The notes below the pieces were generated by a model, which worked only from the letters and a program-made list of their open reading frames with translations, ran no database searches and was not told the origin of the DNA. Made by a program: the position numbers and the translations under genes. A stretch of DNA of 64,000 bases from Maribacter thermophilus (GTDB taxonomy: Bacteria > Bacteroidota > Bacteroidia > Flavobacteriales > Flavobacteriaceae): assembly GCF_001020565.1 (NCBI RefSeq), contig NZ_LDAS01000001.1, forward strand, positions 3,434,520-3,498,519, in the 5' to 3' direction. Shown here one piece after another: positions 43,985-57,307 of this stretch. Each line of letters opens with the position of its first letter. The first letter of the stretch is position 1.

Positions 43985-45265
43985 TTATGAAATCTTCTCC
44001 ATCTTGGCCCTGATTTCCTCTAGGCATAAATTTCCCAGACTGCCTTCGTGGGTATGGTGGATGTCGCGTTTAGGGGTAAAGGTGCCTTCCTGAATCTCCA
44101 TTCCCATTTTTTTATAGGCGTCCCTAAAGGGCATGCCGCTCTGTACCAGCTCGTTTAGGGTGTCGACACTAAAAAGGTAGTCGTATTTGGGGTCTTCCAG
44201 TATACCCTTGTTTACCTGCATTTCCTTAAGGCTAAAAGTCAATATTTCCAAACACGCTTTCATATCTTGAATAGCGGGAACAATAATTTCCTTCACCAAT
44301 TGCAGGTCCCTATGGTAGCCACTGGGAAGGTTGTTGATGACCAAGGTCAACTGATTGGGAATGCCTTGTAGCTTGTTGCATTTGCCCCGTACCAATTCAA
44401 AAACATCGGGGTTCTTTTTATGTGGCATAATACTGCTGCCGGTAGTCAATTCGTCCGGGAAGGATACAAAGTTGAAATTCTGGCTCATGTACAGGCAAAT
44501 ATCCATGGACAGTTTTGATAGGGTAGCGGCAATGTTCGCCATTCCAAATGCAGTGGCTTTCTCTACCTTGCCACGGCCCATTTGTGCGGCCACTACATTA
44601 TATTTTAAGGTCTTAAAGCCCATTTCTTGGGTCGTGAAACTTCGGTCTATTGGAAAGGAGCTTCCATAACCTGCGGCACTCCCCAACGGATTCTGGTCCG
44701 CTACTTTATAGGCGGCATCGACAAAATACAAATCGTCGATAAGGCTTTCGGCATAGGCCGATAACCACAGGCCAAATGAGGACGGCATGGCAATTTGTAA
44801 GTGCGTATATCCGGGCAACAGAACATCTTTATATTTTTCGGCCAGTTGCAATAGCAGATCAAAAAGTTCTTTGGTACCTGATTTTATTTCTGAAAGTTCG
44901 TTTTTCAAGTATAGGTGCATGGCGACCAAAACCTGGTCGTTTCTTGACCGTGCGGTGTGTATTTTTTTTCCGGTATCGCCCAATTTTTCCGTGAGTACGT
45001 ATTCGATTTTCGAGTGCATGTCCTCAAAGGAATCCTCGATGGTAAATTCTCCTTTTTCAATGGTTTCGGCAATGGCATCCAGTTCTGTCACCAAGGCAGA
45101 AGTTTCCTCTTCGGTCAACAATCCTATTTTGCCCAGCATCTTGGCATGGGCCTGCGAGGCGATTACGTCGTATTTCGCCAAGTGCAGATCCAGTTCGCGG
45201 TCGTTACCTACAGTGAAATGGTCTATTTTTTTGTCTGTGCTAAAGCCTTTGTCCCAGAGTTTCAT
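43985..45265 (-). CDS. argH: Argininosuccinate lyase
   Basis: The start is the ATG at 45265; a TTG at 45295 would add ten poor residues. The 426-residue enzyme has the fumarase-superfamily signature GSSIMPHKKNPD at 276-287, with TARSRNDQV at 104-112, and an N-terminal MKLWDKGF typical of ArgH. It splits argininosuccinate into arginine and fumarate, the last step of the pathway. It is the last arginine gene of the operon; a 62-base gap with an inverted repeat separates it from argE. Confidence 0.95.
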   Translation of the reverse strand: MKLWDKGFSTDKKIDHFTVGNDRELDLHLAKYDVIASQAHAKMLGKIGLLTEEETSALVTELDAIAETIEKGEFTIEDSFEDMHSKIEYVLTEKLGDTGKKIHTARSRNDQVLVAMHLYLKNELSEIKSGTKELFDLLLQLAEKYKDVLLPGYTHLQIAMPSSFGLWLSAYAESLIDDLYFVDAAYKVADQNPLGSAAGYGSSFPIDRSFTTQEMGFKTLKYNVVAAQMGRGKVEKATAFGMANIAATLSKLSMDICLYMSQNFNFVSFPDELTTGSSIMPHKKNPDVFELVRGKCNKLQGIPNQLTLVINNLPSGYHRDLQLVKEIIVPAIQDMKACLEILTFSLKEMQVNKGILEDPKYDYLFSVDTLNELVQSGMPFRDAYKKMGMEIQEGTFTPKRDIHHTHEGSLGNLCLEEIRAKMEKIS

Positions 45266-45285
45266 AATTGTAAGTTTGCATTGAT

Positions 45286-45333
45286 CAATAAACAATTATC
45301 CATCGATTTTTGTTTACTGATTATTGTTTATTG
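45286..45333 (-). repeat. 11-base inverted repeat in argE-argH junction
   Basis: CAATAAACAAT (45286-45296) and its exact reverse complement ATTGTTTATTG (45323-45333) flank 26 bases. In the mRNA this can form a long-loop hairpin overlapping the argE stop and ending 20 bases before the argH start. It might set argH translation or an RNase cut, or be a chance AT-rich repeat. Confidence 0.35.
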
Positions 45334-46392
45334 TAAAAATCCTTTTAATAAGTTAATGTACAGGTCAATTCCCTCTTCAATTTCGTGAATGTAAATATAC
45401 TCATCTGCAGAATGCGAACGGGTACTGTCGCCAGGGCCCAATTTCAACGATTGGCAGTTTAAGGCCGCTTGGTCCGACAAGGTGGGCGAACCGTAGGTCT
45501 TTCTTCCCAATGCGATCCCCGACTGCACAAGGGGATGGTCTTTGGATATGGACGAGGAGTTTAACCGTAGCGAACGTTCCTTTAATTCACAGGGAGCTTC
45601 CTTTTTTAACAGTTCGGCAATTTCGGCATTGGTGTATTTGTCGTTTACCCGAACGTCTACGACCAATTCTACCTTGGCAGGTACCACATTATGTTGGGTT
45701 CCCGCGTTTATTTGCGTAACGGTCATTTTCACAGGTCCCAGAACGTCTGATACTTTCGGGAATTTATAGTTTTTAAACCACTCTAAAACCTCAATGGTGT
45801 TGTAAATGGAGTTGTTGTCGTTCGGGTGTGCGGCGTGTGAAGGCATACCTTTTACCACGGCATCGAAAACAATGAGGCCCTTTTCGGCAATGGCCAAATC
45901 GAGTAGGGTAGGTTCCCCGACGATGGCCACATCAATTTTGGGAAGCAAGGGTAAAAGTCCCCTTAAACTATTGGGGCCGGCACTTTCTTCTTCCATAGAG
46001 GCCACCATCAAAATATTGTGGTTGAGGTTCTGTTCGGCGTAGTAATGGGTAAAGGTAGCCATGAGGGAAACCAAGGCTCCGCCGGCATCGTTGCTTCCCA
46101 AACCATACAGTTTACCATCTTCGATATGGGGGAGAAAGGGATCTCTTGTATAGGCCGAATTCGGTTTTACGGTATCGTGGTGCGAATTGAGAAGAAGCGT
46201 GGGCTTGTTTTCGTCAAAATGCTTGTTCACCGCATATACGTTGTTGATGTGGCGTTTGCACGGAATGCCGAAAGCCTTGAACCAGTTTTCAATGGCATCG
46301 GCGGTCTTGTCCTCCTCCGATGAGAACGACTGGATCGAGATCAGTTCCTTTAGTAATTCTATTGCTTTTTGCGTTAATGCTGCTTGTTCCAT
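45328..46392 (-). CDS. argE: M20 family deacylase ArgE (N-acyl-citrulline/ornithine deacylase)
   Basis: I start at the ATG 46392 (354 residues); the frame runs further, but those 34 residues lie inside argB and look spurious. M20 metal ligands are in HHDTVKPN (71-78), ND at 101-102 and the catalytic MEEES (133-137), with a late His near HSADEY. In this type of cluster ArgE removes the acyl group from N-acylcitrulline after the ArgF' step. Whether the group is acetyl or succinyl is discussed under argF'. The gene starts 2 bases after argB ends. Confidence 0.9.
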   Translation of the reverse strand: MEQAALTQKAIELLKELISIQSFSSEEDKTADAIENWFKAFGIPCKRHINNVYAVNKHFDENKPTLLLNSHHDTVKPNSAYTRDPFLPHIEDGKLYGLGSNDAGGALVSLMATFTHYYAEQNLNHNILMVASMEEESAGPNSLRGLLPLLPKIDVAIVGEPTLLDLAIAEKGLIVFDAVVKGMPSHAAHPNDNNSIYNTIEVLEWFKNYKFPKVSDVLGPVKMTVTQINAGTQHNVVPAKVELVVDVRVNDKYTNAEIAELLKKEAPCELKERSLRLNSSSISKDHPLVQSGIALGRKTYGSPTLSDQAALNCQSLKLGPGDSTRSHSADEYIYIHEIEEGIDLYINLLKGFLQ

Positions 46393-46394
46393 TT

Positions 46395-47174
46395 TTATAG
46401 GGTAAGGGTCGTGAATAAGGTAGCTTTGGGGTCGAGCATGCCAATATCCCCAATGCGTACCTGGTGTACGTTTTTGTGAAGGGCATGAAAACAATTCTCC
46501 ATTTTGGGAAGCATGCCGTCGGCGATGATCTTTTGCTCAAGTAGGCTTTGGTACGATTGGCTATCGATATGTTTTACCACCGATGTGTCATCGTTTACAT
46601 CCATCAAAACCCCCTTTTTCTCAAAACAATAGTAGAGGGTGGTCTCGTAATTTTTGCTCATACCTATGGCGAGTTCCGAGGCAATGGTGTCGGCATTGGT
46701 GTTCAGTAATTGTCCTTTGCCGTCATGCGTCATGGCACAGAAAACGGGGGTAAGGCCGGCTTCTAAGAGTTTGGATACCGTTGGGGCGCTTACGCCGTCA
46801 ACATCCCCGGCAAAGCCGTAATCGATCTCCTTTACCGGTCGTTTATGGGCCTGAATGGTATTGCCGTCGGCACCACTGAGTCCAATCGCATTACAGTTGA
46901 GCGACTGCAGTTCGGCCACGATGTTCTTGTTTACGAGTCCGCCATAGACCATGGTAATGAGTTCGAGGCTTTGGGCGTCGGTAATGCGGCGTCCGCCGAT
47001 GAGTTTTGATTCTATTCCGAGTTTTTTGCCCAGTTGGGTGGCCAGTTTTCCGCCGCCGTGGACCAATATTTTTGGGCCTTCCAGTTCGGAAAACGCCTTT
47101 AGGAACTTAGAAAGTTCTTCTTTGTTTTCGATGACGTTGCCGCCGATCTTTATGATGGATAATTTCTTTTTCAT
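46395..47174 (-). CDS. argB: N-acetylglutamate kinase (amino acid kinase family)
   Basis: A 259-residue kinase with the opening IIKIGGNVIE, the acyl-glutamate site HGGGKLATQLGKKLG, GLSGADGNTI and NTNADTIASELA. It phosphorylates N-acylglutamate, the second step of the pathway. It lacks the N-terminal helix that many arginine-inhibited hexameric forms have, so it is probably a dimer of the arginine-insensitive type, as in E. coli. It starts one base after the SDR gene and ends 2 bases before argE. Confidence 0.94.
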   Translation of the reverse strand: MKKKLSIIKIGGNVIENKEELSKFLKAFSELEGPKILVHGGGKLATQLGKKLGIESKLIGGRRITDAQSLELITMVYGGLVNKNIVAELQSLNCNAIGLSGADGNTIQAHKRPVKEIDYGFAGDVDGVSAPTVSKLLEAGLTPVFCAMTHDGKGQLLNTNADTIASELAIGMSKNYETTLYYCFEKKGVLMDVNDDTSVVKHIDSQSYQSLLEQKIIADGMLPKMENCFHALHKNVHQVRIGDIGMLDPKATLFTTLTL

Positions 47175-47175
47175 G

Positions 47176-47922
47176 TTACGAATTTATGATTCCTCCGTCA
47201 ATGGTCATAGCCGTACCGGTGATCCATGACGCATCTTCGGACACCAGAAAAAGGGCCAGTTTGGCGATATCTTCGGGCGTGCCCAATCGATTTAACAAGG
47301 TGGATTCGGCTGCATTTTCAACGGCCTTGTCCGGGTTTTTGAAGGCTTGTGCCGAATTCCATAGCAAAGGGGTGTCCACCGGGCCCGGACACATGGCGTT
47401 CACCCTGATGTCGGGTGCGTACTCTACGGCCATTTGCTTCATCAGTGCCACGGCCCCTGCTTTTGAGGCACAGTAGGCAGGGTGGTTGGGGAAGCTCTTG
47501 AAGGCCGCAATGGATGCGTTGATCAATATACTTCCTTTTTCTTTTTGTAAATGGGGAAGGGCAAACTTGGAGAGTGAAAAAATACTCGTCAAATTGGTTG
47601 CCAGGGTTTCGTTCCAAAGTGCATCCGAGAGATTGACAACATTGCCCAATCCGAGTATACCGGCATTAAGTGATACGATATCTAGCTTTCCAAAATTTTC
47701 TAGGGCGCTGGAGACCAAGCTTTCGTTATAGGAGGCATCCTTAACATCGCCTGCTACGAATATGGAGTGGGGCAATTGTTCGGACAGTGCGATGCCCCGT
47801 TCTTGGTTTCTACCCGAAAGCACCAATTGGGCCCCTTCGGCAGAAAACTGCTCGGCTATGGCCTTGCCCATTCCACTCGTGGCCCCCGTAATAATGCATA
47901 CCTTGTTCCCTAGTTTTTTGAT
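47176..47922 (-). CDS. SDR family oxidoreductase inside the arginine operon; start codon unclear
   Basis: A short-chain dehydrogenase with the nucleotide motif TGATSGMGKAIA and the catalytic Ser/Tyr/Lys set in INASIAAF and YCASKAG. The only ATG in frame (47871) lies inside the motif and would remove the first Rossmann strand. Upstream, the frame reads KQLAIKKLGNKVCIITGATSG back to the TAA that ends argF' (47935-47937), which is in this same frame, and holds no ATG, GTG or TTG. Starting at the ATC of 47922 gives 248 residues, the normal length. Either a rare ATC start is used, or a start codon was lost, or there is a sequencing error. Its substrate is unknown. Confidence 0.8.
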   Translation of the reverse strand: MKKLGNKVCIITGATSGMGKAIAEQFSAEGAQLVLSGRNQERGIALSEQLPHSIFVAGDVKDASYNESLVSSALENFGKLDIVSLNAGILGLGNVVNLSDALWNETLATNLTSIFSLSKFALPHLQKEKGSILINASIAAFKSFPNHPAYCASKAGAVALMKQMAVEYAPDIRVNAMCPGPVDTPLLWNSAQAFKNPDKAVENAAESTLLNRLGTPEDIAKLALFLVSEDASWITGTAMTIDGGIINS

Positions 47923-47934
47923 GGCTAGTTGTTT

Positions 47935-48873
47935 TTAATTGTTTTCCAGAATTTTCTTGAGTACCACCTGCGCCGCATAGGTTCGGTTGTTGGCCTGCTC
48001 TATGACGAGGGATTGGTCGCTGTCCAACACATCATCTGAAACCACCACGTTTCTTCGTACCGGTAGGCAGTGCATAAATTTGGCCTTGCCTACTTTTTCC
48101 GGGGTCATGGTCCAGCTTTTATCTTGGTTCAGTACTTTTCCGTAGTCGGTATAACTGCTCCAGTTCTTTACATAGATGAAATCGGCATTTTCACATGCCT
48201 TTTTCTGGTCGTATTCAATGGGCGTTCCTCGGGTGATCTCGGCATTGAGCTCATAGCCTTCGGGGTGGGTGATCACAAAGTCGGCATCCTGCAACTGCAT
48301 CATTTCTACGAATGAATTGGCTACGGCATGCGGCAGGGCCTTCGGATGCGGGGCCCATGACAGTACCACTTTGGGCCGTTTCTTTGTGTTTTGTTCGGCC
48401 AGGGTAATGGCATCTGCAAGGGCCTGTAAAGGGTGACCTACCGAACTTTCCATGTTTACGATGGGTACGGAGGCGTACTTTTTAAATCCGTTCAATACTT
48501 TTTCCGATTCATCCTCCTCCTTGTCCTTTAATCCGGCGAAAGCCCTAATGGCGATAATATCACAGTATTGCGAAATAACCTGGGCGGCCTCTTTGATGTG
48601 TTCCGAGGTGCCTTGGTCCATAATGGTTCCGTCAGCGTATTCCAAGGCCCAACCTTCACTACCAAAATTCATGACGATAACCTCTAGGCCTAGGTTCATG
48701 GCTGCCTTTTGGGTGCTTAGGCGGGTACGGAGACTGTTGTTGAAAAACAACAGCCCAATGGTTTTGTCGGTACCTAGGTTCCTGTGTTTTTTAGGGTTCT
48801 TTTTTAGGTCTCGGGCTTCTTCTACCCAATTAGGTAATGAGTCTATGTCCTGTACGGAGAGGTAATGCTTCAT
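47935..48873 (-). CDS. argF': N-acyl-L-ornithine transcarbamylase ArgF' (probably N-succinylornithine type)
   Basis: A 312-residue transcarbamylase with the carbamoyl-phosphate loop NNSLRTRLS (45-53), HPLQ (147-150) and HCLPVRRN (268-275). The layout is that of the Bacteroidetes/Xanthomonas enzymes that act on acylated ornithine, not of OTCase. The residue that separates the two kinds is Glu92 in the Xanthomonas N-acetyl enzyme and Pro90 in the Bacteroides N-succinyl enzyme. Here it is Ser90 in GTSEH. As I recall, changing Glu92 to Ser, Pro, Ala or Val turned the acetyl enzyme into a succinyl one, so Ser90 favours the succinylated pathway. Confidence 0.93.
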   Translation of the reverse strand: MKHYLSVQDIDSLPNWVEEARDLKKNPKKHRNLGTDKTIGLLFFNNSLRTRLSTQKAAMNLGLEVIVMNFGSEGWALEYADGTIMDQGTSEHIKEAAQVISQYCDIIAIRAFAGLKDKEEDESEKVLNGFKKYASVPIVNMESSVGHPLQALADAITLAEQNTKKRPKVVLSWAPHPKALPHAVANSFVEMMQLQDADFVITHPEGYELNAEITRGTPIEYDQKKACENADFIYVKNWSSYTDYGKVLNQDKSWTMTPEKVGKAKFMHCLPVRRNVVVSDDVLDSDQSLVIEQANNRTYAAQVVLKKILENN

Positions 48874-48928: not shown

Positions 48929-49705
48929 TTAAAGGCTGTCTTTGGTCTTGATCTTAGTGTGTTTTCCCAACCCTTTAAAAGCATCGGTGATAAAGCTGTC
49001 GTTAAGACCGTTTACGATCCATGTTTCAATGTTCGCTTGCTGGGCAATAGTGGCCGCTTCAACTTTTGATTGCATGCCCCCGGTACCGTGCGATGATTTT
49101 TGTGAACTGATCTGGTGTTGTAGGTCATGGACCCCCAGAACTTCATAAATAGTTTCCGGTTGTCCTTTTTCGATAGAGATTTTGGTGTATATACCATCGG
49201 TATTGGTGGCAATCATCAACAGGTCGGCGTTGAGCAAGGTAGCTGTTAATGCGGCCAACTTATCATTGTCACCAAACTGGATCTCATCTGCAGCTACCGT
49301 ATCATTTTCGTTGATGATGGGAATAAAGTTATTGCTGATCAAAATATCTATCGTGTTCTTAATGTTGGCCTTTGATTTCTGATTCTCAAAATCGGAGTAA
49401 GACAAAAGACACTGGGCCGCAAACAGGCCAAGTTCACGAAAACTTTCTTGAAACATTCGCATTAAATGGGGCTGTCCAATGGCTGCTAAGGCTTGTTTTA
49501 CGTTAATGTCCTCACCATTGTGCTCCAATTTTACAAACTGCTTGGCAGCGGCTATGGCACCTGAGCTTACGATGATAAACTCATAGTCGTCTTTAAGGGA
49601 GGCAATCTGCCTACCGATATCCTCTATCTTTCCCCGAGAAATCTGATTTGTTTCCTTGGTAAGTGTATTGGAGCCAATTTTTAGTAATATTCTTTTTTTA
49701 GACAT
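48929..49705 (-). CDS. proB: Glutamate 5-kinase (kinase domain only)
   Basis: A 258-residue amino-acid kinase with the opening ILLKIGSNTLT, the segment IIVSSGAIAAAKQF, NENDTVAADEIQFGDNDKLAALTA, and GTGGMQSKVEAA. It makes gamma-glutamyl phosphate, the first step of proline synthesis. The C-terminal PUA domain of the E. coli-type enzyme (about 367 residues) is absent. That domain contributes to oligomer form and proline control, so regulation may differ. It lies in the arginine operon between proA and argF', with a 55-base gap to argF'. Confidence 0.93.
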   Translation of the reverse strand: MSKKRILLKIGSNTLTKETNQISRGKIEDIGRQIASLKDDYEFIIVSSGAIAAAKQFVKLEHNGEDINVKQALAAIGQPHLMRMFQESFRELGLFAAQCLLSYSDFENQKSKANIKNTIDILISNNFIPIINENDTVAADEIQFGDNDKLAALTATLLNADLLMIATNTDGIYTKISIEKGQPETIYEVLGVHDLQHQISSQKSSHGTGGMQSKVEAATIAQQANIETWIVNGLNDSFITDAFKGLGKHTKIKTKDSL

Positions 49706-49733: not shown

Positions 49734-50933
49734 TTAATTTCTTGTTTGCCCGTTCCCTTTTACGTACCATTTATTGGTTACCAAATGTTGTAAGCCTATA
49801 GGGCCTCGTTGGTGCAATTTATCGGTGCTGATGGCCAGTTCTCCACCTAGGCCAAATTGGCCTCCATCGGTAAAACGCGTTGATGCGTTATGATATACGG
49901 CCGCAGCGTCTATAGAGGTCATAAATTCATCCGCTTTTTCATTATTGTTGGTAATGATAGCTGCAGAATGACCGCCTCCATAGGTATTTATCAATTGTAT
50001 CGCTTCTTTTAAATCGGGCACTTGGCCTAACAGAATTTTATAATCCAAGAATTCTTCGAACCAAACCGCATTACTGCCCATAAGTGATGTGCCTTCTAGG
50101 CCTTCCAATTTTTTATCCGTTAAAATTTCGACATTATGTCTTTTCAATGCTTTTACAAGATGTTGCAAAAATTCTTGTTTTCTAGGTAAGTTTCTTGAAA
50201 CAAGAACTTTATCCAAAGCATTGCATGCTGATATTTTTGAGGTTTTGCCGTTAATAATAATATCCGCGGCCATTTCTAAATCTGCCTCATCGTCTATGTA
50301 TAAAAAATTGTTTCCTCGTCCACTAACAATTACCGGACATGAGGCATGTTGTTTTACAAAGGCAATTAGCCTTTCTCCTCCCCTAGGTACAATTAGATCT
50401 ATTTTCTGCGAGGGTTTTTCAAGAAAAGCCTGTGTTTCAGTTCTACTAAATTGTAGGTAGGTGACCCAATTCGTGTCGGCTTCGTTTGCTTCTAGAGCCT
50501 TGTGCCATAGATCCACCAGGAACAAATTACTGTGCAATGATTCCTTACCGCCTTTTAAAAGTATTTTGTTGCCTGATTTAAAAGCGATACCGGCCGCTTC
50601 GATAGTTACATCGGGCCTAGATTCATATATGATAAGAATGGTTCCGAAAGGTGCCGTTTTATTGCTTACCTGAATACCATTGTCATGGGTAAAGCTAAAA
50701 CGTTCCACGCTCAATGGGTCTTTTTGTGTCGCAAGTTGTTGCAAGCTCAAGACCATGCCCTCTATTTTTGCTTGGTCGACCTTTAGGCGATCTCTCATGG
50801 CCAAGTCATCACCCTCATATTTTTCAAGGTCCATATGGTTTGCGACCATTAAGGCTTGTTTTTTTTCGGCGATTAGTTCGGCCATGGTCATTAAAACAGC
50901 ATTGCGCACTTTTATGTTGAGTTGCTTGTTCAC
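49734..50933 (-). CDS. proA: Glutamate-5-semialdehyde dehydrogenase
   Basis: A 399-residue dehydrogenase of proline synthesis that reduces gamma-glutamyl phosphate. The catalytic Cys is Cys237 in KISACNALDK; YESRPDVTIEAA, LKGGKES and IVPRGGERLI are family blocks. The start is GTG (50933), overlapping the argD stop as GTGA, so it is probably translated by coupling to argD. Its product feeds both proline (through ProC, also in the operon) and, by ring opening in some organisms, ornithine metabolism. Confidence 0.95.
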   Translation of the reverse strand: MNKQLNIKVRNAVLMTMAELIAEKKQALMVANHMDLEKYEGDDLAMRDRLKVDQAKIEGMVLSLQQLATQKDPLSVERFSFTHDNGIQVSNKTAPFGTILIIYESRPDVTIEAAGIAFKSGNKILLKGGKESLHSNLFLVDLWHKALEANEADTNWVTYLQFSRTETQAFLEKPSQKIDLIVPRGGERLIAFVKQHASCPVIVSGRGNNFLYIDDEADLEMAADIIINGKTSKISACNALDKVLVSRNLPRKQEFLQHLVKALKRHNVEILTDKKLEGLEGTSLMGSNAVWFEEFLDYKILLGQVPDLKEAIQLINTYGGGHSAAIITNNNEKADEFMTSIDAAAVYHNASTRFTDGGQFGLGGELAISTDKLHQRGPIGLQHLVTNKWYVKGNGQTRN

Positions 50934-52057
50934 GGTAGTTGTGCTTTTAGTGCATTAAAGAATATATCGATGTGTTTTTCGGTAATATTTAGGGCGGGTA
51001 ATATTCTTAATAACTTTTTGTTTTTTGCCCCACCGGTAAACAAATGCTGGTCATATATTAGTTTTTTTCTAAGTTCGGCTACTTCGAAATCAAATTCAAG
51101 ACCTAGCATTAACCCTTGGCCTTTTACTTTTTTTACCTGTGGAATTTCTTTTGCTTTTTCTTTGAAATAGGCACCTATTTTGGCAGCGTTCTCAATAAGG
51201 TTTTCTTTTTCCAGTACCTCTAAAACAGCCAAAGAAGCTGCACAAGCCAAGTGGTTTCCTCCAAAGGTAGTTCCCAATAGGCCATAACTTGCCTTTATAT
51301 CTTCATGAATTAAAATACCTCCGATCGGAAAGCCGTTTCCCATTCCTTTGGCAACACTTATGATATCTGGTAAAATGTTATGGTGTTGAAATGCGAAAAA
51401 CTTACCGCTTCTTCCAAAACCGGATTGTACTTCGTCTGCAATGAGCAGGGTGTTGTTTTGTTTGCACAGGGTTTCCGTTTCTTTAAAAAAATCCTTGGTC
51501 GGTTCATCCAGACCACCTACACCTTGTATCGGTTCTATTATTACGGCACATACATCGCCTTTCTCCAATTCTTTTTGAAGGTTATTGATATCGTTAAAAT
51601 CTAGGAAAGTAACGGCTTGTTGCTTGTTTATGGGAGCATTAATGGTCGCATTGTCCGTTGCGGCAACAGCGGCGGAAGTTCTTCCGTGAAAACTGTTTTT
51701 AAAAGCGATCACTCTAGATTTTCCGGTCACGAAGGAAGCCATTTTTAAGGCGTTTTCGTTGGCTTCGGCACCAGAGTTACAGAGAAAGAGGTTATAGTTT
51801 TCACAGCCCGATAGAGTGCCTAATTTTGTAGCAAGTTCTTTTTGTAAAGGGTTTTGGACTGCATTGCTATAGAAACCAATTTTGTTCAACTGGTCAGAGA
51901 TTCTTTTAATATAATGTGGATGGGAGTGTCCGATTGATATGACGGCATGGCCTCCATAAAAATCAAGATATTCTTGACCTTTATCATCTATTACTATGAT
52001 TCCTTTGGCGGAAACAGGTGTTACGTCATATAAGGGGTATACATCGAATAGTTTCAT
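50930..52057 (-). CDS. argD: Acetylornithine (acylornithine) aminotransferase
   Basis: A 375-residue class III aminotransferase. The PLP lysine is Lys237 in SVAKGMGNGFPIGG; NSGAEAN (94-100) and DEVQSGFGR (208-216) are the cofactor blocks. It forms N-acylornithine from the semialdehyde using glutamate. Its start overlaps the proC stop as ATGA, and its own stop overlaps proA as GTGA, so three genes are tightly coupled in translation. Confidence 0.94.
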   Translation of the reverse strand: MKLFDVYPLYDVTPVSAKGIIVIDDKGQEYLDFYGGHAVISIGHSHPHYIKRISDQLNKIGFYSNAVQNPLQKELATKLGTLSGCENYNLFLCNSGAEANENALKMASFVTGKSRVIAFKNSFHGRTSAAVAATDNATINAPINKQQAVTFLDFNDINNLQKELEKGDVCAVIIEPIQGVGGLDEPTKDFFKETETLCKQNNTLLIADEVQSGFGRSGKFFAFQHHNILPDIISVAKGMGNGFPIGGILIHEDIKASYGLLGTTFGGNHLACAASLAVLEVLEKENLIENAAKIGAYFKEKAKEIPQVKKVKGQGLMLGLEFDFEVAELRKKLIYDQHLFTGGAKNKKLLRILPALNITEKHIDIFFNALKAQLP

Positions 52058-52848
52058 TTCTTTTTGAATTCTGTTATTTTATCATACGAAGCCACTATGC
52101 CTTGAATAAGGGAAGAGCTGAGTCCTTGATGTTCCATTTCGTTTAAACCTTGTATGGTACAGCCCATAGGAGTGGTCACCCTGTCTATTTCTTCTTCGGG
52201 ATGATTGCCGGATTGAATCAAGAGTTTAGCGGCACCATTGCAGGTGTGCATGGCCAATTCTTGGGCTTCTTTGGCATCGAAACCTAATTGTATGGCCCCT
52301 TGTGTAGTAGCTCTTATAAGTCGCATCCAGAAAGCAATGCCACTTGCGCAGATTACTGTTGCTGCTTGCATTTGAGCTTCGGGTATTTCCATGGAATGTC
52401 CCATTCTATTAAAAATGGATTTTGCCAATTCAATTCTTTTTTGGCCTTTTTTGTTACTGCATAAACAAGTCATGGATGCTTCTACCGAAATAGCAGTATT
52501 GGGCATACTTCTAATAATATAGTTGTCTGGCCCTATAATGTTTTCGATTTTATAAATCTCAAATCCCGTAATGGTCGAAATAATCACATGGTTGTCGTTC
52601 AACAAATCTTTAACATCTTCCAAAATTTTCGAAAAATGGCCAGGTTGTACCGCAAAGATTAGAATGTCGGAGTTAGAAACGGCCTCACGGTTATCGGAAG
52701 TAACGGTAACATTACCATAGTTTTCGTATTTGGAGATAGCTTCCGTATTTCTTTTGGTGAGGAACATTTTGGTGGCTCCATTGGTATTTAAAATACCTTT
52801 GGCAATGGAAAGTCCCAAATTACCGGCTCCTATTATTGCGATTTTCAT
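52054..52848 (-). CDS. proC: Pyrroline-5-carboxylate reductase
   Basis: A 264-residue NAD(P)H-dependent enzyme, the last step of proline synthesis. The nucleotide motif is IGAGNLG (5-11), and the C-terminal half carries ASGIAFWMRLIRA and the typical VTTPMGCTIQGLNEMEHQGLSS. Some ProC proteins in arginine clusters act on related imines, but nothing here suggests this. It starts 31 bases after argC ends and overlaps argD by four bases. Confidence 0.94.
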   Translation of the reverse strand: MKIAIIGAGNLGLSIAKGILNTNGATKMFLTKRNTEAISKYENYGNVTVTSDNREAVSNSDILIFAVQPGHFSKILEDVKDLLNDNHVIISTITGFEIYKIENIIGPDNYIIRSMPNTAISVEASMTCLCSNKKGQKRIELAKSIFNRMGHSMEIPEAQMQAATVICASGIAFWMRLIRATTQGAIQLGFDAKEAQELAMHTCNGAAKLLIQSGNHPEEEIDRVTTPMGCTIQGLNEMEHQGLSSSLIQGIVASYDKITEFKKK

Positions 52849-52879: not shown

Positions 52880-53854
52880 TTAAAATACACTTGCCTTGAG
52901 GTTTAGTCCAAGATCTTCCTCGAATCCAAAAATCAAGTTCATGTTCTGTACTGCTTGTCCTGAAGCTCCTTTTAATAAATTATCTATTGCCGATGTTATT
53001 AAAAGGGTGTCCTCATGTTTGTGCAAGTGAATATGACATTGATTGGTGTTTACCACTTGCTTTAAATTAACGGGGTCTTCCGAGACTTGTGTAAAGACGG
53101 CGTCGGTGTAAAAATCGCTGTACAATTTTTGCGCATTTTCTAAACTACCTTCAAAATGGGTATAGGCAGTTGCTAGAATACCCCTTGTGAAATTTCCTCG
53201 GTTAGGAAGAAAAAATAGTTCTCCCGTATCTGGTTGCAATCTGTGTAAGCTTTCGTTTATTTCACCAAGATGCTGGTGGGTAAATGGCTTGTACCAGCTT
53301 ACATTGTTGTTTCTCCAACTAAAATGTGATGTGGCAGACGGACTAACACCGGCCCCGGTACTTCCAGTTACCGCGTTGATGTGTACGGCCGAATTAAGTT
53401 TGCCTGCTTTGGCCAGAGGCAACAGGGCCAATTGTATCGCTGTGGCGAAGCACCCCGGATTCGCTATAAATTCGGCATTTTCAATTTGTGGTTTATTAAG
53501 CTCTGGCAGTCCGTACACAAATTCTTTGCCGTTGAAATTGGCGTCGGCCTCTAGTCTAAAATCATTGCTAAGATCAATAATTTTAGTGTTCGATGAAAAA
53601 TCGTGTTCTTTTAAGAATTTGGACGAGTTGCCATGACCTAGGCACAAAAAAACAATATCAACATTCAAATGTACTTCCCCTGTAAACTGTAGATCTGTAA
53701 TGCCCAACAAGTCGGGGTGTGCAGAGGTCAAAGGTTTGCCTGCCCTGGTGGTGGAATATACAAAATCGATTTGCATACCAGGATGGTTCAATAGAATTCT
53801 GATAAGTTCTCCCCCGGTATAGCCAGAGCCTCCAATAATTCCTGCTTTAATCAT
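52880..53854 (-). CDS. argC: N-acetyl-gamma-glutamyl-phosphate reductase
   Basis: A 324-residue enzyme with the NADP motif GGSGYTGGELIRIL (8-21), and the catalytic Cys135 in ANPGCFATAI. A later His lies in NRGNFTRGI and neighbours, and VTGSTGAGVSPS is the usual loop. It reduces N-acylglutamyl phosphate to the semialdehyde. Its start lies within the last codons of argG (an eight-base overlap), so the two are coupled. Confidence 0.95.
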   Translation of the reverse strand: MIKAGIIGGSGYTGGELIRILLNHPGMQIDFVYSTTRAGKPLTSAHPDLLGITDLQFTGEVHLNVDIVFLCLGHGNSSKFLKEHDFSSNTKIIDLSNDFRLEADANFNGKEFVYGLPELNKPQIENAEFIANPGCFATAIQLALLPLAKAGKLNSAVHINAVTGSTGAGVSPSATSHFSWRNNNVSWYKPFTHQHLGEINESLHRLQPDTGELFFLPNRGNFTRGILATAYTHFEGSLENAQKLYSDFYTDAVFTQVSEDPVNLKQVVNTNQCHIHLHKHEDTLLITSAIDNLLKGASGQAVQNMNLIFGFEEDLGLNLKASVF

Positions 53855-55034
53855 CGCTATTGTTTACATGGTTATATATTTTACCTGCATTTGACTGTAT
53901 TTTTATAAAGCCTTTGGCTTCATCGGCCGTCCAACCTTTGTTCATTTCACCATAACTTCCAAAGGCGGCGTTCATTAGGTCATGCGGAGACGATATACCG
54001 TTTAACCTAAACTGAAATGGATACAGTGTAACGAATACATCACCGGATACTGTTTTTTGGGTGTCGGTCAAAAAGGCCTCTATATTTCTCATTACAGCAT
54101 CTAGATAATTGCCTTCATGTAAAAGCATACCGTAGAAATTTGCCTGTTGTTCTTTTTGAAACTGTTGCCATTTTGTCAAAGTATGTTTTTCCAATAAGTG
54201 GTGTGCTTTGATAATGATCAGTGCCGCGGCCGCTTCAAAACCTACCCTGCCCTTTATGCCGATAATGGTGTCACCTACGTGAATATCTCTACCTATGGCG
54301 TATTTAGAGGCCATGGCTTCCAATTTTTCAATGTTGTTTACCGGTGTGTCCTTTACGCCATTTATGGCAATCAACTCCCCTTGGTTAAAGGTAAGTTTTA
54401 CATCCGTTGGATTTTTTTCTTCTAACTGGCTGGGGTATGCACTGTCTGGCAATGGTTTGTCGGAAGTCAATGTTTCGTCGCCACCAACAGATGTTCCCCA
54501 AAGACCTCTGTTGATAGAGTATTTTGCCTTTTCCCAAGAATATTCGATACCGTTTTCTTTTAGATATTCGATTTCTGTTTCCCGGGCAAGTTTGTTGTCC
54601 CTGATAGGGGTTATGATTTCTATTTCAGGAGCTATGATTTGGAAGATCATATCGAACCGTACTTGGTCGTTTCCTGCTCCGGTACTACCATGGGCAATGT
54701 ATTTGGCGCCAATCTTTTTTGCGTAGTTTACAATTTCAATTGCCTGTACAATTCTTTCGGCACTTACAGAAAGGGGGTAAGTGTTGTTTTTAAGTACGTT
54801 TCCAAAGATCAGGTATTTTACCACCTTGTCGTAAAAAGTCTGCACCGCATCTATAGAGGTATACGAAGAAGCTCCCAGTTCTAAGGCTTTTTCCTCGATG
54901 GTCTTAATTTCTTCAGGAGAAAAACCGCCGGTGTTTACACTTACTGCATGTACTTCAAATCCTTTTTCTTTTGATAAATATTTGGCGCAATATGAGGTGT
55001 CCAATCCTCCACTGTATGCTAATACTAATTTCAT
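53847..55034 (-). CDS. argG: Argininosuccinate synthase
   Basis: A 395-residue ATP-dependent enzyme joining citrulline and aspartate. The N-terminal PP-loop AYSGGLDTSYCAK (6-18), the stretch HGSTGAGNDQVRF and SINRGLWGTS are all present. In this organism it appears second in the operon, after the GNAT gene, although it acts near the end of the pathway. It overlaps argC by eight bases and is separated from the GNAT gene by 76 bases. Confidence 0.95.
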   Translation of the reverse strand: MKLVLAYSGGLDTSYCAKYLSKEKGFEVHAVSVNTGGFSPEEIKTIEEKALELGASSYTSIDAVQTFYDKVVKYLIFGNVLKNNTYPLSVSAERIVQAIEIVNYAKKIGAKYIAHGSTGAGNDQVRFDMIFQIIAPEIEIITPIRDNKLARETEIEYLKENGIEYSWEKAKYSINRGLWGTSVGGDETLTSDKPLPDSAYPSQLEEKNPTDVKLTFNQGELIAINGVKDTPVNNIEKLEAMASKYAIGRDIHVGDTIIGIKGRVGFEAAAALIIIKAHHLLEKHTLTKWQQFQKEQQANFYGMLLHEGNYLDAVMRNIEAFLTDTQKTVSGDVFVTLYPFQFRLNGISSPHDLMNAAFGSYGEMNKGWTADEAKGFIKIQSNAGKIYNHVNNSDD

Positions 55035-55110: not shown

Positions 55111-55722
55111 CTATTTTTTCTTTTTTAAGAACAAAGATTCTTTTATGCTTTTTAATCTTCTAAACGACTTCTTGTCGATGCTCTTTTTTTCTTTTCTCTC
55201 TCTTTCGGGATCATGTAACATACCGGTACATAGGCACATTTTACGTTCGGTTCTAGTTAGGATATCGAAATTTTTACAGGTTTGGCAACCCTTCCAAAAC
55301 TCTGGGTCATCGGTTAGTTCAGAAAAGGTTACGGGTTGGTAGCCTAGTTCATAATTTATTTTCATGACGGCTAGGCCTGTGGTGATACCAAATATCTTGG
55401 CACCTGGAAATTTCTCTTTGCTCAGTTCAAAGATTCTTTTTTTGATTTTTTTTGCCAAGCCTTGCCCTCTATAATCCGGATGTACGATTAAACCCGAATT
55501 GGCTACAAATTTTTCGTGTCCCCAAACTTCTATATAACAGAAGCCGGCAAAAGTATCCCCGTCCAAGGCAATTATGGCATTACCGTTAGATAACTTTTTC
55601 TGAATATATTCAGGAGTACGCTTTGCGATTCCTGTTCCACGTACTTTTGCCGATTCCGCGATGGTATTGCAAATAATCTGTGCGTATTTAAAATGTGATT
55701 CGTTAGCAACAACTAGCTTCAT
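55111..55722 (-). CDS. GNAT acyltransferase, candidate glutamate N-acylation enzyme
   Basis: A 203-residue GNAT protein with the acyl-CoA loop HPDYRGQGLAKKIKKR (~80-95) and a typical NSGLIV strand. The C-terminal part carries a Cys-rich stretch, KGCQTCKNF then MCLCTGM, that could bind a metal, followed by a Lys-rich tail. It is the first enzyme gene of the arginine operon, and no argA or argJ is present, so it is the natural candidate for acylating glutamate (acetyl or succinyl). This role is inferred from context only. It lies directly after the putative arginine leader. Confidence 0.83.
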   Translation of the reverse strand: MKLVVANESHFKYAQIICNTIAESAKVRGTGIAKRTPEYIQKKLSNGNAIIALDGDTFAGFCYIEVWGHEKFVANSGLIVHPDYRGQGLAKKIKKRIFELSKEKFPGAKIFGITTGLAVMKINYELGYQPVTFSELTDDPEFWKGCQTCKNFDILTRTERKMCLCTGMLHDPERERKEKKSIDKKSFRRLKSIKESLFLKKKK

Positions 55723-55735
55723 TGCTATTTAGATT

Positions 55736-55795
55736 TTAAGAAAATAAAGAAATAATTGATTTTGCTTGTGCGGAAATGGACTCACCTAATTCCAT
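55736..55795 (-). CDS. Small ORF between arginine leader and GNAT gene
   Basis: A 19-residue ORF (MELGESISAQ... ending SLFS) that starts 16 bases after the leader ORF stop and ends 13 bases before the GNAT ATG. Its start sits in a short hairpin, ATGGA (55791-55795) pairing with TCCAT (55776-55780). It may be a second leader, a coupling ORF that loads ribosomes for GNAT, or chance. There is no Shine-Dalgarno site to help decide. Confidence 0.4.
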   Translation of the reverse strand: MELGESISAQAKSIISLFS

Positions 55796-55807
55796 AAAAT
55801 ATACCCT

Positions 55808-55819
55808 ACCCTTACGGGC
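55808..55819 (-). promoter_or_regulatory. Hairpin enclosing the leader stop codon
   Basis: In the RNA, GCCC-GUAA-GGGU forms a four-base stem (one G-U pair) with a GNRA loop that contains the UAA stop of the leader ORF. A ribosome ending there would open it, while a ribosome stalled upstream might leave it closed. It is short, so this is a suggestion only. I see no strong intrinsic terminator in the leader. Confidence 0.3.
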
Positions 55820-55898
55820 GACGGCGGCGAAGTGCGAACGGACGACGTACGGGAGTAGAAATGCCCATAGTAGTTGATATGTAGTTTTGTTCGTTCAT
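55812..55898 (-). CDS. Putative arginine leader peptide (attenuator) of the arg/pro operon
   Basis: An ATG at 55898 opens a 28-residue ORF ending at TAA 55812-55814. Its end reads PVRRPFALRRRRP, with six Arg among the last eleven residues, encoded by CGT CGT and then CGC CGC CGT CGC. The region is strikingly GC-rich within an AT-rich gap. A run of the end-product codon just before a stop, directly upstream of the operon that makes that amino acid and on the same strand, is the hallmark of leader-peptide attenuation. Low arginine would stall ribosomes at these codons. A longer frame over 55786-55986 exists but has no such logic. The promoter is unclear; TATTATTTG lies about 15 bases upstream. 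Confidence 0.75.
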   Translation of the reverse strand: MNEQNYISTTMGISTPVRRPFALRRRRP

Positions 55899-55963
55899 TG
55901 TGGGGGTAAATGTACAAATAATATTGGACCGACCTAATAGATGGAATTTTTTTTACAAAAACT

Positions 55964-57307
55964 TTAATTTTTGTTAGGATGTACAAAAAAATCGTAACTC
56001 ATAAAACCTATCACTGAAATATATTCAATGGCCAGTAGTACGAGATTTTCTTTAAAATCTACCTGAGAATAGGCGAAATAACTTAAAACGATGGCTGCGG
56101 ACCATATGATCGCATATCTATATGTGGTAAAAGAGGATAACAAAACCAAGAAAATTATATACCATGGGTGAACGGTGGTAGAGATCAAATAATAAATGGT
56201 CAATGCCCACATCATGGATTTTAAGAGTCCTAAAAGGGTGCTGTTTTTTCCAAAAAAAGTTAGTAGCAATATCACAGAAACAGTAATAATGGGTGTTATT
56301 TTACCATAGATCTTAATGAACTCCCATGGTTTTTGATCTAAATAAACAGCTATTTGTTTAATAAGGTTGTAGAGGCTGGCATTGAACTCAAAATTAGAAA
56401 ACCACAAACTAAGGGTTTGTGAATAATTTGAAACAAACTCTAAAGTATAAAATGGGGCAAAAGACAGCGCCAGGGTACTTAAGACGATCATGTAAAACAG
56501 GATACTTCTTTTAAGTCCGAAGTATTTTAAAAAAAGAGGTAAAAATAACAAAGGCACCAATTTGATAGAAATGGAACACCCCAGCATTACTGCGGCCCAT
56601 TGCCATTTTTTAACGGATAGTAAATACATGGACCACACGAAAAAGAACAACATTACACCTTCAAAATGAAGATTGCCCGTTAGTTCCACTATAACCAGTG
56701 GGTTTAGAAAATACCAAAAGATGAGATGGGGAGAACAGTTCAGTTTTTTTAAGAACTTTCTTCCAAAATAAAAAATTCCGATATCTGCGAGAATAATAAA
56801 ACTTCTCATCGCAATTATAGAACCTAAAATCGTTTTTCCGCCCCATAGGGCTGCCATGGCAAAAATCAATTGGTTCAAAGGTGGATAGTTACTATAATGC
56901 TTGGCGCTTAGTTCTCCCATACCCATATATAGTTCTTGGGCATTGGGTATTATGTGGTCGGATTGTTGGATCAGTATGTTTGGTACTTCTACATACGGGT
57001 TTATGAAATTGCGCACCAATTCGCCATCCCAAATAAAACGATAAAAATCTTGCGATAAGTGAGGTTCTAAAGGCAAGAACACGAATCTGGCCAAAATACC
57101 TGCTGCCAAGAGAAACCTAAAATTCCATTTTTCGAATTGTATCAATTTTAGGTAAAAGAAAAAAAGAGCAAGAAATAAGGTTAGTAGTTTAATAAAATCT
57201 GTGCGCTCTGTCCGGTATGCAAGGGTGTAGTAAAACACCAGTGATAGCAACACAAATAGTATGGAGAATTTATGAAGTTTAAGGTACGTTGTTAACCTGG
57301 TAGACAT
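55964..57307 (-). CDS. GT87-like membrane glycosyltransferase (DUF2029)
   Basis: A 447-residue protein with about ten or more membrane helices, consistent with polyprenyl-phosphate-sugar-dependent GT-C transferases. The first periplasmic loop holds the conserved acidic pair region HLSQDFYRFIWDGELV, and NYPPLNQLIF follows. A mannosyltransferase role is common in this group, but the sugar and acceptor are unknown. It is 213 bases downstream of the GT2 gene and 65 bases upstream of the arginine leader on the same strand. A terminator at 57468-57500 separates it from the GT2 genes. Confidence 0.83.
   Translation of the reverse strand: MSTRLTTYLKLHKFSILFVLLSLVFYYTLAYRTERTDFIKLLTLFLALFFFYLKLIQFEKWNFRFLLAAGILARFVFLPLEPHLSQDFYRFIWDGELVRNFINPYVEVPNILIQQSDHIIPNAQELYMGMGELSAKHYSNYPPLNQLIFAMAALWGGKTILGSIIAMRSFIILADIGIFYFGRKFLKKLNCSPHLIFWYFLNPLVIVELTGNLHFEGVMLFFFVWSMYLLSVKKWQWAAVMLGCSISIKLVPLLFLPLFLKYFGLKRSILFYMIVLSTLALSFAPFYTLEFVSNYSQTLSLWFSNFEFNASLYNLIKQIAVYLDQKPWEFIKIYGKITPIITVSVILLLTFFGKNSTLLGLLKSMMWALTIYYLISTTVHPWYIIFLVLLSSFTTYRYAIIWSAAIVLSYFAYSQVDFKENLVLLAIEYISVIGFMSYDFFVHPNKN

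Follow-up and report, generated by a model that had tools for sequence, protein, structure and literature searches.

An arginine-codon leader with two conserved hairpins precedes the arginine/proline operon of Flavobacteriaceae and is most likely a ribosome-sensed attenuator

The window analyzed here, a 64,000-nucleotide stretch of the Maribacter thermophilus genome, carries an arginine/proline operon headed by a short arginine-rich ORF. The leader described below offers a candidate answer to the question of how arginine synthesis is controlled in a large bacterial family without a detectable ArgR. A first-pass annotation, made from the letters alone, had pointed to a 28-codon ORF directly upstream of the GNAT/argG operon, bearing six Arg codons among its last eleven sense codons, and had interpreted it as a ribosome-sensed arginine switch. 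The ORF was recovered at 55812-55898 on the minus strand as described, and its Arg codons were likewise confirmed (CGT CGT, then CGC CGC CGT CGC), with a single Pro codon (CCG) standing between the Arg run and the TAA. Two hairpins located at and after the stop codon, missing from that annotation, turned out to be the most conserved part of the region. The leader region comprises the following features, in the direction of transcription:

55907..55914, minus strand: predicted -7 promoter box TACATTTA, 8 nt before the ATG (sequence; similar boxes in relatives)
55812..55898, minus strand: leader ORF, 28 codons, ATG to TAA, ending ...VRRPFALRRRRP-stop (ORF translation)
55848..55869, minus strand: H0, a weak hairpin inside the ORF, UAUGGG/CCCGUA (by eye; folding z)
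55818..55829, minus strand: four consecutive Arg codons, CGC CGC CGT CGC, the last one within H1 (sequence; codon bias)
55807..55820, minus strand: H1, CGCCC-GTAA-GGGT(A), stop codon in the loop (model R1; pair variants)
55772..55793, minus strand: H2, GGAATT-AGGTGAGTCC-ATTTCC (H2 scan, R1, covariation, model R2)
55723..55771, minus strand: G-poor untranslated stretch from H2 to the GNAT gene (composition over 80 genomes)

The ORF translates as MNEQNYISTTMGISTPVRRPFALRRRRP (28 amino acids) and lies 89 nt from the GNAT gene; its upstream neighbor is a gene that matches GT87 weakly, under the Pfam cut-off, and no tRNA genes were found in the window. At the Arg frequency of the window, the chance of at least six Arg in 27 codons is about 3e-4 for the M. 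thermophilus ORF alone, which is weak evidence given that the ORF was hand-picked. Its reality was settled instead by conservation, both within the genus and family-wide, and the reading as a chance ORF was rejected on these grounds. The genes following the leader are:

55111..55722, minus strand: GNAT-family acetyltransferase, first gene of the operon (Pfam PF00583, PF13508; under all NCBIfam cut-offs)
53847..55034, minus strand: argG (TIGR00032, above cut-off)
52880..53854, minus strand: argC (TIGR01850, above cut-off)
52054..52848, minus strand: proC (TIGR00112, above cut-off)
50930..52057, minus strand: argD-type aminotransferase (TIGR00707, 373 bits against a cut-off of 410; PF00202)
49734..50933, minus strand: proA (TIGR00407, above cut-off)
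48929..49705, minus strand: proB (TIGR01027, above cut-off)
47935..48873, minus strand: argF-type carbamoyltransferase, nearest to N-acetylornithine carbamoyltransferase (NF003384, 284.9 bits, just under the cut-off of 288)
47176..47871, minus strand: SDR-like gene inside the operon (ORF, named by eye)
46395..47174, minus strand: argB (TIGR00761, above cut-off)
45328..46494, minus strand: argE-type peptidase, start codon uncertain (ORF, named by eye)
43985..45295, minus strand: argH, start codon uncertain (TIGR00838, above cut-off)

The GNAT protein leading the operon could be the missing acylglutamate synthase.

A strong ortholog of the GNAT gene was present in 98 of 149 sampled genomes of the family. 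Upstream regions were fetched for 90 of these 98 first and for six later (G052 and G095 were left out), and in 83 of the 90 regions a loose scan revealed a short ORF with at least three Arg among its eight C-terminal residues, most Arg-rich ORFs ending some 85 to 105 nt before GNAT. The ORF ends run into CGYCGCCCGTAAGGGTG, followed by a U-rich linker (58% T) and by GGAA..TAGGTGNGTCC..TTCC. A covariance model, termed R1, spans the ORF end, H1 and H2 and was built from 83 sequences, that is, after the H2 scan had returned no match in G110, G134, G140, G059 and G127 and the false loops of G070 and G099 had been removed; of these, G134, G059, G070 and G099 were later scored by R1. In the window, R1 matched 55769-55849 (minus strand) with 71.3 bits. 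Among the 149 genomes it matched 92 at E<1e-6, comprising 91 of the 98 with the GNAT gene and one of the 51 without it. In that single genome (G084, L292) the element precedes another gene and then argG, which ties the element to the arginine operon rather than to GNAT.

In a larger draw from the family, which includes the first sample, 247 of 397 genomes and 156 of 237 genera were matched by R1 at E<=1e-4. At the phylum level, 26 of 296 sampled genomes gave matches at E<=0.01, and all 13 matches at E<1e-7 fall within Flavobacteriaceae; the best match outside the family (E 4.9e-4) was read as chance, as was a weak second match in the M. thermophilus genome (E 0.003). We also inspected the best 80 of 587 named GNAT loci, which are the scan-confirmed ones and share some genomes with model R1, and the element stood just before GNAT in 80/80 (weakest E 8e-5). 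The genera found among these loci include Maribacter, Zobellia, Pricia, Arenibacter, Allomuricauda and Flagellimonas, as well as Robiginitalea, Cellulophaga, Gillisia, Salinimicrobium and Gelidibacter. Within the genus, M. thermophilus included, all 19 genomes have the leader, ending in Arg-Arg-Pro-stop in 18 and in Arg-Ser-Arg-Pro-stop in one. No DNA similar to the element was found in phage records.

Seven genomes with the GNAT gene gave no confident element. By eye, five of them (G033, G065, G081, G110 and G140) retain an Arg-containing ORF with the H2 core changed or lost, and in G069 no leader ORF was seen upstream of GNAT. The leader ORF is therefore more widely retained than the H2 core, which favors the ribosome as the primary sensor. 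As separate observations, G033 (L293) and G081 (L296) show by eye a hairpin with a replaced core at the H2 site, after the Arg-containing ORF, and G127 (L111), from a large genus in which most sampled members have no R1 match, has a different short ORF with few Arg, MNKISLHITSLSRTISPGTSPEVRMLSI, before GNAT and no confident element. Many genomes of the family also have a second Arg-rich ORF farther upstream, at about -305 to -225 before GNAT (L029, L063, L066, L069, L081), of the type MKNLKNKIR...RNRRRF; its AAAAATAAAATACGT codons look, by eye, complementary to a conserved ACGTAATTTTAATTTTTT located just before the second ORF.

The reading frame was examined in 82 leaders, one per genome (G031 left out), over the 25 codons preceding the final Arg. 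Stop codons occupy 2 of 2050 positions in the leader frame, compared with 128 of 1968 and 124 of 1968 in the other two frames (252 of 3936 in total), and Arg was counted 284 times in the leader frame versus 78 and 73 in the others. Most leaders end in RRP-stop (65 of 82), and five more end in another X-Arg-Pro-stop (PRP-stop in four, TRP-stop in one), leaving 12 without a Pro-stop end. Examples of the latter, with H1 present, are RRPLGV in G061 and RRTSVRV in G100, and in both G007 and G100 H1 pairs CGCAC/GTGCG; the presence of H1 in this class is partly a product of selection, since only stems with 4 or more of 5 pairs passed the scan. In attenuation theory, the choice of control codons reportedly matters. 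Outside the final two Arg positions, 165 of the 207 Arg codons of the 82 leaders are CGY (80%), as opposed to 164 of 609 (27%) in the window ORFs of at least 250 amino acids, in which AGA is the commonest, a comparison that sets 82 genomes against one and is uncorrected for kinship. CGC or CGT is also required by H1, and the bias count excludes only the last two Arg positions. In the same-genus leaders the Arg run alternates mainly between CGC and CGT, with few replacements. Because the P values ignore the relatedness of the genomes, all of them are too small. The expectation of the first-pass annotation that Arg-rich ORFs with codon-level conservation would precede orthologous operons was thus borne out in much of the family, and the comparison supports its proposal of a ribosome-sensed switch, in which arginine would be the input and expression the output.

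The hairpins differ markedly in their conservation. H0 varies in sequence and has a mean folding z of -0.94 over the 82 leaders, compared with +0.54 in M. thermophilus, where it is weak. H1 is built from the last Arg and Pro codons, usually with the stop codon in its loop, and pairs 5 of 5 positions in 150 of 189 sequences, a generous count that takes the best stem anywhere in the stretch; in M. thermophilus the outermost C-A is unpaired. H2 consists in M. thermophilus of a lower stem with one U-U mismatch, an unpaired A, the GG:CC pairs and the loop UGAGU. Its core, AGGUGNGUCC, has the general form A-GG-UGNGU-CC (N being A, T or C), with mostly one or two unpaired bases between the lower stem and GG:CC. 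In the 186 sequences with a recognized core (3 of the 189 had none) this core is near-invariant, with GGTGAGTCC in 134, GGTGTGTCC in 32, GGTGCGTCC in 11 and others in 9, while the lower stem varies, and in three genomes the inner GG:CC becomes GA:TC. The variation of the lower stem preserves pairing, as the mean best run reached 6.02 over 118 distinct arm pairs versus 3.29 with swapped partners (0/500). The covariation score on alignment A5, which was fitted to the structure and then scored, was 0.141 versus 0.071 in shuffled alignments (0/500), and every slid version scored lower.

A model of H2 alone, R2, gave E 8.9e-6 in the M. thermophilus genome and one strong match (E<=2.6e-5) per genome in all 19 same-genus genomes; among 12 other genomes of the order no strong match was detected, the next best having E 0.02. 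The motif AGGTGNGTCC occurs 15 times in the M. thermophilus genome, compared with 6 for the reversed control, and second copies of the element were rejected, since by eye only the arg copy combines the stem with a leader. From the end of the H2 core to the GNAT start codon the median distance is 55.5 nt (80 genomes), and this stretch contains 15.8% C and 4.9% G over 80 of the 82 regions, two long ones being left out.

At the other end of the leader, a box TACATTT[AG] stands 7 nt before the ATG in 17 of the 23 leaders in which the scan detected a box, and a similar -7 box is present in the 19 same-genus leaders. Given the placement of the -7 box at -12 to -5 relative to the transcription start (PMC9723704), the predicted box would set the start near 55902 and leave a 5' UTR of 3-4 nt, so that the leader ORF is probably near-leaderless. 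Leaders begin with ATG, or in many genomes with GTG or TTG, and measure 20 to 42 codons under our start rule, the first part of the peptide being variable. An ACATA-like stretch (often with Ile near codon 7) was noticed by eye around codons 7-9 of many leaders, for example at window positions 55870-55885, and keeps a constant distance from the leader start in many of them. A minimal leader of 19 codons, with a GTG start and six Arg in its last eight sense codons, was seen in G064 (L299), a genome of 1.7 Mb; it retains H1 and H2 and is too short for H0.

We then consider how the RNA could be read. In agreement with the annotation, which saw no strong intrinsic terminator, 0 terminator-like sites were detected at 55650-56100 of the M. 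thermophilus window, the only one scanned, and by eye a T-run after H2 is absent in most aligned sequences. A coevolved antiterminator was not found either among 166 items, in which the linker plus the 5' arm of H2 was compared with swapped linkers (folding -0.99 versus -1.10, the swapped versions being at least as stable in 186/200). RNAalifold proposed a long-range CGCC:GGUG helix, which was dropped because two of the three varying genomes break it: G047 alters both sides, and G096 and G199 break the helix while restoring the inner pairs of H2. The annotation had also recognized no ArgR site, and this view was strengthened at the level of the gene, as the ArgR family (PF01316) was detected in 0 of 149 family genomes, M. 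thermophilus included, and in 9 of 14 control genomes. Searches of Rfam release 15 returned only a chance-level snoRNA match (E 0.88) for window 55500-56200 and no match at E 0.5 for seven relative loci; the leader thereby adds a structured RNA unmatched by this release. By eye, the HIRRT..HIM core (DUF2618, PF10940) of SpeFL/orf34 is absent from the 82 leaders. No description of this ORF-H1-H2 element was found in the literature covered, subscription papers and preprints lying mostly, and supplements wholly, outside it.

Taken together, we consider it probable that the element is a leader-peptide attenuator that senses the charging of the arginine tRNA reading CGY codons, with a factor-dependent readout. 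Transcription would begin a few bases upstream of the leader ORF. Under arginine shortage, the ribosome would halt at the CGY codons entering the 5' arm of H1, and H1 would stay open; with ample arginine, the ribosome would arrive at the stop codon and depart, and H1 would close. The state of H1 would then decide whether RNA polymerase, or the mRNA, continues into GNAT-argG. A readout factor is proposed because the scans revealed no intrinsic terminator and no antiterminator; candidates are Rho or an RNase, with the G-poor stretch ahead of GNAT as the target, this output step being a guess. The suggestion of the annotation, a non-standard terminator or translational control, fits these observations, a conserved H2 being present instead. 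H2 may be where a protein, RNA polymerase or a ligand docks. Its core is conserved beyond what simple attenuation calls for, a possible sign of an RNA or protein sensor, and what reads a conserved hairpin with no intrinsic terminator after it is the question that the element raises. More tentatively, we envisage a two-part attenuator doing the job of ArgR in Flavobacteriaceae, in which the near-leaderless Arg-codon ORF would hold H1 open and the H2 core would bind a protein, RNA polymerase or arginine, bringing about termination or antitermination without an intrinsic terminator.

Other explanations distribute the same evidence differently. If the RNA itself were the sensor, H2, perhaps together with H1, would act as an arginine riboswitch or as the operator for an RNA-binding regulator, with the ORF in a secondary role. 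The near-invariant core above a varying lower stem suits this idea, as does the exchange of GG:CC for GA:TC, but it leaves the conserved frame, the Arg content and the CGY bias of the ORF unexplained, and in the five genomes cited above the core is changed or gone while an Arg-containing ORF persists; we regard it as unlikely. Somewhat more doubtful still is a nascent-peptide sensor of the TnaC or SpeFL type, in which Arg-Arg-Pro-stop would arrest the ribosome upon binding free arginine or a related metabolite. This would account for the prevalent Arg-Pro-stop ending, and TnaC likewise ends in Pro before its stop codon, yet 12 of the 82 leaders lack the Pro-stop end, which speaks against such a sensor, as do the variable length and first part of the peptide, and codon choice should be irrelevant to it.

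A classical attenuator of the trp/his type, with H2 as the terminator and the terminator and antiterminator overlooked by our scans, would agree with control codons that overlap a first hairpin and are followed by a second. Upstream of hisG in M. thermophilus (L291, G000:C1:1009267-1009731) the short ORF MRNRTIHHHFHTHAQAR was seen by eye, with a hairpin and a T-run after it; this leader has the look of a textbook his attenuator, gave no his-leader match in Rfam at E 1, and indicates that classical attenuators seem to exist in this organism. For the arginine leader, by contrast, the lack of a terminator-like site and mostly of a T-run, the linkers that perform no better than swapped ones, and the CGCC:GGUG helix broken in G096 and G199 make this improbable. 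The conserved frame and basic C-terminus could also reflect a functional small basic peptide without a regulatory role, but with a poorly conserved N-terminal part, a variable length and an ORF end fused to a covarying RNA hairpin, this appears very improbable. A ribosome-sensed attenuator remains the most likely reading, from sequence comparison, even though the intrinsic terminator and the antiterminator helix, two defining features of trp/his attenuators, were not found.

Like the trp and his attenuators, the arginine leader combines an ORF carrying control codons for the product of its operon with hairpins that overlap and follow these codons; unlike them, it has neither a terminator nor an antiterminator that could be found. 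The arrest peptides TnaC and SpeFL are short leaders with Arg-Pro or Arg before the stop codon, from which the flavobacterial leaders differ in that the Pro-stop end is dispensable and the codons are biased. In Flavobacterium psychrophilum, of the same bacterial family, leader-peptide attenuation is reported to be strongly indicated upstream of amino-acid operons, with conserved 5' elements at hisG and pheA (PMC9723704); the general idea is the same, and an arginine leader is not named in the main-text section concerned. Short ORFs reminiscent of leader peptides have also been noted in B. thetaiotaomicron (PMC7366714), and the portion of PMC2965389 considered contains no mention of Bacteroid, Flavobacter or arginine.

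The best precedent for a factor-dependent readout is orf34-speF of Salmonella, in which Rho and RNase G act together with pausing at a pair of Arg codons and with a hairpin beyond the stop codon (PMC6386406). Both systems place tandem Arg codons in a short leader ORF and a hairpin downstream of the leader stop; in orf34 the fate of the mRNA depends on how fast the leader is translated, and reliance on an intrinsic terminator is not described for orf34-speF in the portion of that paper considered (PMC6386406). In orf34 it made no difference whether the Arg codons were rare or frequent (PMC6386406), which implies that codon choice need not mean tRNA sensing. The two also differ in several respects (PMC6386406): orf34 serves an ornithine decarboxylase, whereas the Maribacter leader precedes arginine biosynthesis; orf34 starts at +32 with a Shine-Dalgarno sequence and spans 34 codons, whereas the leader described here is probably near-leaderless; and 484 nt separate the start of orf34 from that of speF, compared with about 55 nt from H2 to GNAT. 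The conserved H2 core and the biased CGY codons likewise set the flavobacterial leader apart from orf34-speF.
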